From the NCBI GenBank assembly GCA_028873965.1, contig JAPPMU010000031.1:1-64000 (forward strand): DNA of 64,000 nt. Direction: 5' to 3'. This DNA is from Chloroflexota bacterium (GTDB lineage Bacteria > Chloroflexota > Dehalococcoidia > Lucifugimonadales > UBA3495). A program made the position numbers and the translations under genes. Of this stretch, positions 1,960 to 8,329 are shown one piece after another. The notes beneath the pieces were generated by a model. The model did no database searches, had not been told where the DNA came from, and was given only the letters and a program-made list of their open reading frames with translations. Every line of letters starts with the position of its first letter. Position 1 is the stretch's first letter.

Positions 1960-2053
1960 ATTTTGTCAGAATCAGGATTACGGGGATTGGAGGATTTTCA
2001 GGATTATGGGTTTCATCCTGAAAATCTCAAAATCCAGCAAATCCTGCTTCAGA
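1960..2053. repeat. dispersed palindromic repeat, GATTTTCAGGATT family, copy 2 (short)
   Basis: Between the ABM-like gene and the convergent DRTGG gene lies GTCAGAATCAGGATTACGGGG, then GGATTTTCAGGATTATGGG and its inverted form CCTGAAAATCTCAAAATCC, ending AATCCTGCTTCAGAC. It is related to the repeats at 60-206 and 20060-20180. The inverted halves could form a hairpin and might end transcription from both sides. It slightly overlaps the 3' end of the next gene. Confidence 0.55.
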
Positions 2054-3038
2054 CAGTTGAAAGTAGCGCGGTCAAATCCACGAGCCCATCCAGCAGGTCG
2101 GCCATGCGCTCGGCCTTGTGCAGGCTGTGGGGCAACACAACGTCGAGGAGACCGCCCACGGCGTCGGCGGTGGCAACGGTGCTTTGATCCACGAGAAGGA
2201 CCGGCACGCGCCGCTTGGTAGCCTCCACGCGGATGTACTCGGTGGGTCGGGAACCGCCGGTGAGGACCAGGCAGCGGGTATCCTGCACCAGCGATGCCAT
2301 CTGGATGTCGGGCCGCTCGGCGCGGGTGATCACCGCTTGGTGGCCGTATCGCCCGAAATATCCGGCGCCGGAGTCCATGATGTTGCCGCCGATGAGGAAC
2401 CGGTCGATCCAAGCGTCGCGGTCCTCCGGTTCCAGTTCCCAGCGTCCGCCCAGGCTGGCTTCCAACTGGTCCAGGCTCAGGGACAGCATGTGGCGGTCCT
2501 CCGGCAGGGCGCCGATTGCCGGCACGCCGGCGGCCGATAGTTCGGACAACAGGGCTTCCGCACGCCGGGTCTGATACCGAGGCGTCTGATTGATTACCAC
2601 GCCGGCCAGACGGAAGCCCAGGGTGGCCACCGCGCCGGAAACGCTCACCGCCGTCGTATCCGGCTCGTAACCGAACACGGTCACCACGCGAGCGGAGAGA
2701 CGCTCCGCCAAGCCGGAGACGATGGGCGAGGCCGCCCCGGAGCTGCTGGCAGAATTGGCAACCTCAACGATGACGTGCTCACTGATGCCCGTCAGCGAAC
2801 GCACCGCGCTGGCCACGACGTCCAGCCCGGCGTCATCCTCTGACGATGTTGTCACGGCGATGCTGCCGCGGAAGTTTTGCGCGAAATACATGGCGTCGGG
2901 GTCCGTGCGTCCGGCCGGCGACAACGGCTTGCACACGGAAACGCGCGCGCCCGACCGGGCGATCAGGGTCGCCAAGCCGGCGGCCACGGACGTTTTGCCG
3001 GCACCGGGCTGATGGGACGCTACGAGAATGACAGACAT
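2049..3038 (-). CDS. P-loop/DRTGG-domain protein (phosphotransacetylase N-terminal-like)
   Basis: A 329-residue cytoplasmic protein. Residues 5-17 (VASHQPGAGKTSV) are a BioD-like Walker A motif, followed by an AAA_26/dethiobiotin-synthetase-like domain to about residue 200. The C-terminal third (about 215-320, with LVLTGGSRPTEYIRVEA) matches the DRTGG domain. The same architecture occurs as the N-terminal regulatory part of long phosphotransacetylases and as free-standing proteins of unknown role. No catalytic Pta domain is present, so it is not itself an acetyltransferase. It is the last gene of a minus-strand run behind the pentapeptide-repeat gene (26-bp gap). Confidence 0.75.
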   Translation of the reverse strand: MSVILVASHQPGAGKTSVAAGLATLIARSGARVSVCKPLSPAGRTDPDAMYFAQNFRGSIAVTTSSEDDAGLDVVASAVRSLTGISEHVIVEVANSASSSGAASPIVSGLAERLSARVVTVFGYEPDTTAVSVSGAVATLGFRLAGVVINQTPRYQTRRAEALLSELSAAGVPAIGALPEDRHMLSLSLDQLEASLGGRWELEPEDRDAWIDRFLIGGNIMDSGAGYFGRYGHQAVITRAERPDIQMASLVQDTRCLVLTGGSRPTEYIRVEATKRRVPVLLVDQSTVATADAVGGLLDVVLPHSLHKAERMADLLDGLVDLTALLSTV

Positions 3039-3064: not shown

Positions 3065-3766
3065 CTAATAGTCGTCCACCCGGTTCTCGATGAAATTAGG
3101 GTCGAAGCCGGGCGGGAAGTTGGTGGTGTCGTCCCACTTGCTCATGGTCATGTCGCAGCGGTGCAGGCTGGCGCGGTTGAAGTTGGCGCCGCGCATGTCG
3201 GTCATGATCCACATCGAGTCGCGGATTTTGGCGGCGGTGAAGTCCGCGCCGTGCATGATGGCACGGCTGACGTCGGCGCCGTTGAGATTGGCGCCCTGCC
3301 AGTTGGAGTTAGTCAGGTTGGCGGAGCGAAGGTCCACCTCGATGGCGGTGACCTGGCTGCAATCGGCGTCGGTGAGGTTCGTGTTCAGGAACGAAGCCCG
3401 ATTGAGCCGAGACCACTGCAGGATGGCCTCCTGCATGTTGGACTGCTTGAGGTCCGCCCAGAAGAGGTTGACGTTACGCAGAATGGTCATCGCCATCTGT
3501 GCCGACGCCAGGGTCGCGCCGTACAGATCCGACCCGGTGAAATCGGCAGCGCGCAGGTCGCAGCGGGACAGGTTGGTCCGCGTGAGGCGAGAGTCCGCCA
3601 GGGAAGCGCCCCGTAAGTCGGAATCGCGCAGGTCTGCGCCGGCTAGGTCAAGGCCGGACAAATCCGCGGCGCGCAGGTCAAGCTGCACGTCCGGGTTTGC
3701 GGACTTCCACTCGTCGATGGCGCTCTTGCCGGAGCGAACCACTGCTACATGATCTGGATTGGCCAT
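3065..3766 (-). CDS. pentapeptide-repeat protein
   Basis: A 233-residue protein. From about residue 28 to 215 it consists of A(D/N)LXX pentapeptides (for example ADLSGLDLAGADLRDSDLRG), the signature of a right-handed quadrilateral beta-helix. Functions in this fold range from gyrase protection to scaffolding, and nothing here selects one. Its ATG (3766-3764) follows the TAG of the SelW-like gene with no intervening base, so the two are almost certainly cotranscribed and translationally coupled. That coupling is also indirect evidence that the upstream reading frame is translated through its internal UGA. Confidence 0.88.
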   Translation of the reverse strand: MANPDHVAVVRSGKSAIDEWKSANPDVQLDLRAADLSGLDLAGADLRDSDLRGASLADSRLTRTNLSRCDLRAADFTGSDLYGATLASAQMAMTILRNVNLFWADLKQSNMQEAILQWSRLNRASFLNTNLTDADCSQVTAIEVDLRSANLTNSNWQGANLNGADVSRAIMHGADFTAAKIRDSMWIMTDMRGANFNRASLHRCDMTMSKWDDTTNFPPGFDPNFIENRVDDY

Positions 3767-4084
3767 CTAAGCGTTTCTCGCTGCGGCGATCTCGTCCTCG
3801 ACGTCGAAGACGCGCTCCGCGATCACCATCTTGAGTTCATTGACCTTGCTGTAGCCCGGGTACTCGTCGCCCTCTTCATCGAAGCGGTCGAAGATCTTGT
3901 CGCCGTCCAGGTAGATCTCCAAGCGGCCCTTGTCGGCGGGGGTGAGTTTGATCGCGATATCGCCGGCGTTTTGGGAGCGCCAGAATTCGGTCGCCAGCCA
4001 CGTGGCGAGGCCGTGGTAGCCTCAAGGGACGCAATAGACGATGTCCACTTCGACTTTGCCGAACTCGGAACGGGTCATGGTCAT
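3767..4084 (-). CDS. SelW-like (Rdx family) selenoprotein, CxxU, UGA at codon 21
   Basis: Read through one in-frame TGA (4024-4022), this frame encodes 105 residues from ATG 4084 (AGGAG, spacing 8) to TAG 3769-3767. It begins MTMTRSEFGKVEVDIVYC, with Cys18-Val-Pro-Sec21-Gly-Tyr, then a helix (GLATWLATEFWRSQ) and strands around LEIYLDGDKIFDR. This is the thioredoxin-like Rdx fold (SelW/SelT/SelH-like); known bacterial members carry CxxC or CxxU at exactly this place, often CVPCGY. Eighty-four sense codons follow the TGA with family-like sequence and no further stop. A hairpin suited to a bacterial SECIS lies just downstream. Other genes here end in TGA, so UGA is not generally reassigned. The alternative is a Cys-to-stop pseudogene. 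selA, selB, selC and selD are not in the window. Confidence 0.8.
3991..4008 (-). promoter_or_regulatory. candidate bacterial SECIS hairpin
   Basis: On the minus strand, 13 nt after the UGA codon, a perfect 6-bp stem TCGCCA/TGGCGA encloses the 6-nt loop CGTGGC; two further G-C pairs can form across a 2-nt bulge (4011-4012 with 3989-3990). The loop begins 19 nt after the UGA and has G at its second position followed by U. This fits published descriptions of bacterial SECIS elements (loop 16-37 nt from UGA, G in the first two loop bases). The fold was found by eye; no energy was computed. Confidence 0.5.
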
Positions 4085-4190
4085 TCGGGATGCTCCTGTA
4101 ATGCGGTCGTTGAGCAGAGGGATGCGTTTTCGCATTGCACTCTACTCACTAATAGTGGGGTCCTATGGAAAAGGGCTGAATCACTCAGGG

Positions 4191-4547
4191 TCACAAGCTT
4201 TCCAGCATACGGATGAAGTTAGCCATTTCCCCTTTGCCGTGGCGAATTTCGTCGGCGCCGGGAGGCCAGCCGTAGAACCGTGAATGAAACGAGCTTGCCG
4301 CGAGGTAATAAGTGTACAGTACCGGAGGAGCGCCCTCGTCATCAATCAGGCGCAATACCGTTTCCGCCAAGGCGTTGTGGGATTCGTGAAACCAGCCCCG
4401 GCGCTCGGCGATGGCTTTGATGGCATGGGCCGCGGCGCCCCATATCTTGTTGCAAGCCTCCTCCAACTCGCCGCGCTCAACCTCCTCGTCCACCAAATCG
4501 AGGAAATGCCAGCTCCGTTCGGCGTGGTAATCAACGACCGTAGTCAT
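4191..4547 (-). CDS. PaREP1/HEPN-like small protein
   Basis: A 118-residue protein, mostly helical: SWHFLDLVDEEVERGELEEACNK, then IWGAAAHAIKAIAERRGW and an HNAL segment. The tandem helices with a conserved WGAAAHAIKAIAE stretch resemble the PaREP1/PaREP8 family, thought to be HEPN-like. No nucleotidyltransferase partner lies beside it, so a toxin-antitoxin role is not supported. It lies 106 bp upstream of the SelW-like gene on the same strand. The intervening 4085-4190 shows no gene. Confidence 0.6.
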   Translation of the reverse strand: MTTVVDYHAERSWHFLDLVDEEVERGELEEACNKIWGAAAHAIKAIAERRGWFHESHNALAETVLRLIDDEGAPPVLYTYYLAASSFHSRFYGWPPGADEIRHGKGEMANFIRMLESL

Positions 4548-8252: not shown

Positions 8253-8329
8253 GCCACGGTAGCTCAGTTTGGTAGAGCGATGGCTTGATACCGCGTGTGT
8301 CGCCGGTTTGAGTCCGGCCCGTGCCACCA
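8253..8329 (+). tRNA. degenerate tRNA-Ile(GAT)-like gene
   Basis: The 77-nt sequence has a D-arm (GCTC/GAGC with GG in the loop), a 5-bp T-arm (GCCGG/CCGGC, loop TTTGAGT), a 5-nt variable region and an encoded 3' ACCA. By position the anticodon is GAT with T33 and A37. Oddities: C-C mismatch at 2-71, G-G and C-C mismatches at 30-40 and 31-39 beside the anticodon loop, and T instead of C at position 56. Outside the acceptor, GGT and ACC pair further. It may be a tRNA pseudogene, a divergent tRNA or a tRNA-like element. The rest of 8208-8530 shows no gene. Confidence 0.5.

Follow-up and report, generated by a model that had tools for sequence, protein, structure and literature searches.

The question raised by this locus is whether an in-frame UGA at codon 21 of a short open frame ends translation or is read as selenocysteine. 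The frame lies in a stretch of 64,000 nucleotides (hereafter the window), contig C53 of a 3.88-Mb metagenome bin that is 97% complete with 7% contamination. An earlier note, made from the letters alone, had described a frame with a ribosome site, an ATG, Cys-Val-Pro-UGA-Gly-Tyr at codons 18-23, 84 further sense codons and a TAG abutting the ATG of the next gene, and had proposed that the UGA encodes selenocysteine. All of these elements are found as described, on the minus strand (Table 1), and most of the 14 genus loci likewise have a purine-rich site ahead of the ATG. The frame is not a chance one, given that its translation matches the family profiles described below and that orthologues with the same UGA occur in all 14 genus genomes.

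Table 1. Features of the window at and around the SelW-like gene, with candidate functions where these are predicted.
Feature	Position	Strand	Remarks
SelW-like (Rdx family) CDS, putative selenoprotein	3767..4084	minus	105 codons, UGA codon 21, stop TAG
ATG start codon of SelW-like gene	4084-4082	minus	
Shine-Dalgarno site AGGAG	4097..4093	minus	8 nt 5' of the ATG
Cys18-Val19-Pro20	4033-4025	minus	
In-frame UGA, codon 21	4024-4022	minus	CVPU motif, followed by Gly22-Tyr23
SECIS-like hairpin with 2-bp lower stem	3989..4012	minus	UCGCCA (CGUGGC) UGGCGA at 3991-4008, loop in brackets
Stop codon TAG of SelW-like gene	3769-3767	minus	Abuts the next ATG at 3766-3764
Pentapeptide-repeat protein gene	3065..3766	minus	ATG directly after the TAG of the SelW-like gene
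AAA_26/CbiA-type gene	3038..2049	minus	Nucleotide-binding and DRTGG domains; next after the pentapeptide-repeat gene
PaREP1-family gene	4547..4191	minus	5' of the SelW-like gene; weak HEPN match below the HEPN cut-off
tRNA-Ile (GAT)	8253-8329	plus	Rfam tRNA score 41 bits, lowest of the genome's 48 tRNA matches

With the UGA treated as a residue, the translation matches Pfam Rdx (PF10262) with an E value of 2.5e-11 and a score of 44 bits (cut-off 22.6), and narrowly passes NCBIfam TIGR02174 (CXXU_selWTH; 34.9 bits, cut-off 34.2). These profiles assign it to the Rdx (SelW/SelT/SelH) family, bearing out what the earlier note had read from the look of the sequence. The C18-V-P-U21 motif comes immediately after a predicted strand (residues 13-16). 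The top PDB sequence matches are the SelW-related bacterial proteins 2p0g, 2fa8 and 2obk, and in both of the alignments shown among these matches Cys occupies the Sec position; alignment with CxxC homologues, proposed earlier as a check, accordingly sets the UGA on their redox position. A structure model built from nine sequences is of modest confidence (pLDDT 65). In a Foldseek search with this model the top rows, all of them weak (E > 0.04), belong for the most part to SelW-related chains and include 2p0g, 2fa8 and 2obk, which also match by sequence, together with mouse SelW (2npb), which is matched by fold only. VIA-align with the same model ranks ribosome hibernation factors and CsgE above the SelW structures; at Z < 8 and mostly 4-15% identity, we reject these as relatives and take them to reflect only a common arrangement. 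Because the model is modest, the Foldseek rows are weak and VIA-align does not single out SelW, it is from sequence that we infer a thioredoxin-like SelW fold for the 105-residue protein.

The close relatives of this genome are metagenome bins named as SAR202 cluster, Dehalococcoidia or Chloroflexi/Chloroflexota, and the host lineage is SAR202, marine and in part sponge-derived. The earlier note had suggested looking across the genome for selA, selB, selC (anticodon UCA) and selD, and all four are present. Profile searches place selA on contig C54 (542 bits) and selB on C48 (357 bits), selD lies on C10 (L092; 378 bits), and the tRNA-Sec gene (selC) is on C27, scoring 66.4 bits and reported by ARAGORN as tRNA-SeC with anticodon tca (UCA). 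The selD gene has one in-frame TGA, in the motif SHCAGUAAK, and its product is likely a selenoprotein itself. At L009 1132-1597, the tRNA-Sec gene is located directly 3' of a thioredoxin gene. Among 147 related genomes, 123 have a tRNA-Sec above the family cut-off; these include 13 genus members out of 14, only the fragmented bin G004 being absent. Since the tRNA-Sec and the UGA patterns run through the genus, contamination explains them poorly and is unlikely to be the cause of the Sec signals in this bin.

Of the same 147 genomes, 116 gave matches in a protein search. All 14 orthologues from the genus, that of the window's genome included, have exactly one internal TGA apiece, and the UGA stands at the same codon in nearly all of the order relatives listed. 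Where loci were fully read, this codon is TGA in 49, a number that includes a few duplicate views of this genome's loci and its two closest paralogues, and TGC in three. The three TGC loci belong to order-level relatives with a CxxC motif, and Cys is the only substitution at codon 21 among the loci read. Extra TAA or TAG counts in some distant rows fit an alignment that overruns the end of the gene, as read for L061.

Just 3' of the UGA is a hairpin (6-bp stem plus the 2-bp lower stem, -10.1 kcal/mol) whose 6-nt apical loop lies 19 nt past the UGA and has a G at position 2, followed by U. It agrees on every point with the bSECIS model as restated in PMC13188914, namely a loop of 3-9 nt, a stem of 4-16 bp, a G at loop position 1 or 2, a distance of 16-37 nt from the UGA and an MFE <= -7.5 kcal/mol. 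In a set of 36 distinct sequences with Sec, the stem forms 224 pairs out of a possible 252. Resampling synonymous codons 2000 times with the protein held fixed gives a mean of 186 (s.d. 4) and never more than 199. The covariation score is 0.160 versus 0.086 when shuffled, above all 500 shuffles. Kinship among the sequences inflates figures of this sort. One stem position varies as C-G, U-G, U-A, A-U and G-C, a series of compensatory changes, and no other position of this size in the gene pairs as well. The outermost of the seven counted pairs is lost in half of the sequences, the window's included; in the three Cys homologues, 5, 3 and 3 of the seven positions are paired. When the 59 nt from the UGA onward are folded in isolation, the MFE structure favors other pairings, at an energy that is not unusual (z -1.0), and because this folding energy gives no support, the case for a SECIS rests on comparison. 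The comparative support for the hairpin as a putative bacterial SECIS element is good. Because termination is a known competitor of Sec insertion, the codon could be decoded in a mixed way, with some Cys or Trp besides Sec, or could mostly terminate, and the complete protein would then appear only under a plentiful selenium supply. Against this, the hairpin, which is conserved, and the restriction of the substitutions read to Cys point to selection for Sec, and we regard such mixed decoding as very unlikely.

Selection on the frame bears on whether the part beyond the UGA is translated at all. Within the genus, Nei-Gojobori dN/dS (pairwise means) is 0.039 over 16 codons 5' of the UGA and 0.067 over 45 codons 3' of it; in comparisons with the family's other genera, the values are 0.12 before and 0.18 after, with some saturated pairs excluded. 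Such values indicate strong purifying selection on both sides, and from the low ratio 3' of the UGA it follows that the downstream part is translated. The stray stops that the earlier note thought relatives of a pseudogene might show are absent, the frame being open and constrained 3' of the UGA. A nonsense mutation in the redox codon of a CxxC Rdx gene, which would leave the single in-frame stop and otherwise intact frame of a young pseudogene and which had already been thought the less likely course, is made exceedingly improbable by the identical UGA in 14 of 14 genus genomes and across the order, by the downstream constraint and by the presence of Sec machinery in the genome.

In-frame UGA is found in several other genes of this genome. 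All three of its Rdx genes carry CxxU, each with an in-frame TGA; the two paralogues are on C11 (L091, CVPU) and C12 (L089, CWDU). Six of 11 AhpC/TSA-family matches (L120, L121, L122, L123, L124 and L125) have one in-frame TGA, the motifs being TSGU, WUPHC, WUPYC, CUVNC, a deiodinase-like TUPPF and WUPEC, and from their sequences these six are likely further selenoproteins. Together with selD, this brings the candidate selenoprotein genes to at least 10 as sampled from a few families. The PrdB/GrdB family yielded a single partial match, in which there is no internal stop. As a control, none of 21 CMD/AhpD matches contains an internal stop, and in-frame UGA is therefore not scattered everywhere. 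The in-frame UGAs of several genes might suggest a genome-wide reassignment of UGA to one of the ordinary amino acids, of the kind seen in codes 4 and 25, but this is rejected as next to impossible because close relatives end this very gene with UGA (TGATGG, overlapping the next ATG, in genus members L038, L039, L040, L042 and L043), and TGA also ends 7 of the 28 window ORFs chosen by coding signal, the in-frame UGAs read occur at redox motifs and the CMD family has none. These organisms tell two kinds of UGA apart.

The reading that we prefer, with a probability of about 97%, is that the locus would encode a functional small Rdx/SelW-like oxidoreductase with a CVPU motif, the UGA being read as selenocysteine as first proposed; it is a reading from sequence, supported by the Sec machinery, the placement of the UGA at the redox position, the constraint and the SECIS-like hairpin. 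Following established bacterial Sec decoding, the ribosome would pause at the UGA, SelB with Sec-tRNA(UCA) would bind the hairpin just 3' of it, and selenocysteine would be inserted at codon 21 to give the 105-residue protein rather than a 20-residue stub. By family resemblance, Cys and Sec would form a redox couple, most likely cycling between the reduced thiol/selenol and a selenenylsulfide. As to the physiological role, our best guess is redox work on thiols or peroxides.

In all family-level orthologous loci that were checked, the gene next after the Rdx gene is the pentapeptide-repeat gene, with about 48-57% identity outside the genus. In most members of the genus the two genes abut or overlap. 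Beside three order-level loci (L106-L108) the pentapeptide-repeat gene was not found. The arrangement suggests that the two genes would be co-expressed, and a functional link between the SelW-like selenoprotein and the pentapeptide-repeat protein is likely. A search for literature joining SelW, pentapeptide repeat, selenoprotein and bacteria found none. Elsewhere in the neighborhood, the PaREP1-family gene was not found beside the selenoprotein gene in several genus members, and the AAA_26/CbiA-DRTGG gene has a match close to the orthologue in almost every genus locus and in some of the loci from the rest of the family.

SelW-like proteins are the most abundant selenoprotein family in the Sargasso Sea and GOS data (PMC1088965, PMC2398784), the latter holding 427 SelW-like sequences and 56 Cys homologues (PMC2398784). 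The present gene is like these in its small Rdx-type product, its CxxU motif and its predicted bacterial SECIS 3' of the UGA (PMC1088965, PMC2398784). Unlike them, it is assigned to a lineage by name (SAR202/Dehalococcoidia), in a genome with three Rdx paralogues, and has a conserved pentapeptide-repeat neighbor. It also resembles the SelW-like selenoproteins of sequenced bacteria, where the Sec form is dominant in Sec-decoding organisms and Cys homologues are few (PMC1794560). A 2006 survey counted only three selenoproteins, in three families, for the phylum Chloroflexi (PMC1794560), as against the 10 or more candidates in this one genome. The selenoprotein-rich groups of a 2022 review are Deltaproteobacteria, Clostridia and Synergistetes (PMC9312934), and selA and selB have been noted in many bins of sponge symbionts from various phyla (PMC5649159). 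We found no papers on SAR202 selenoproteins in a search whose coverage left out most subscription journals. The SelW-like gene thus adds a new member to a known, abundant marine family, its interest lying mostly in the lineage assignment and the conserved neighbor, and selenium use in SAR202 is wider than we found reported.

We offer as speculation, and as a combination that would more probably fail than hold, that SAR202 is selenoprotein-rich, that the SelW-like and pentapeptide-repeat proteins form a conserved redox module in which the selenoprotein acts on or through its partner, and that SAR202 could be the source of part of the marine SelW-like sequences. Standard gene callers break or miss genes of this kind, so SAR202 annotations are probably without this protein. 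The SelW-like genes and the wider set of candidates in a SAR202-type genome connect some of the marine selenoproteome with organisms and suggest a demand for selenium in this lineage, and the pentapeptide-repeat neighbor provides a concrete candidate partner for the SelW-like family.
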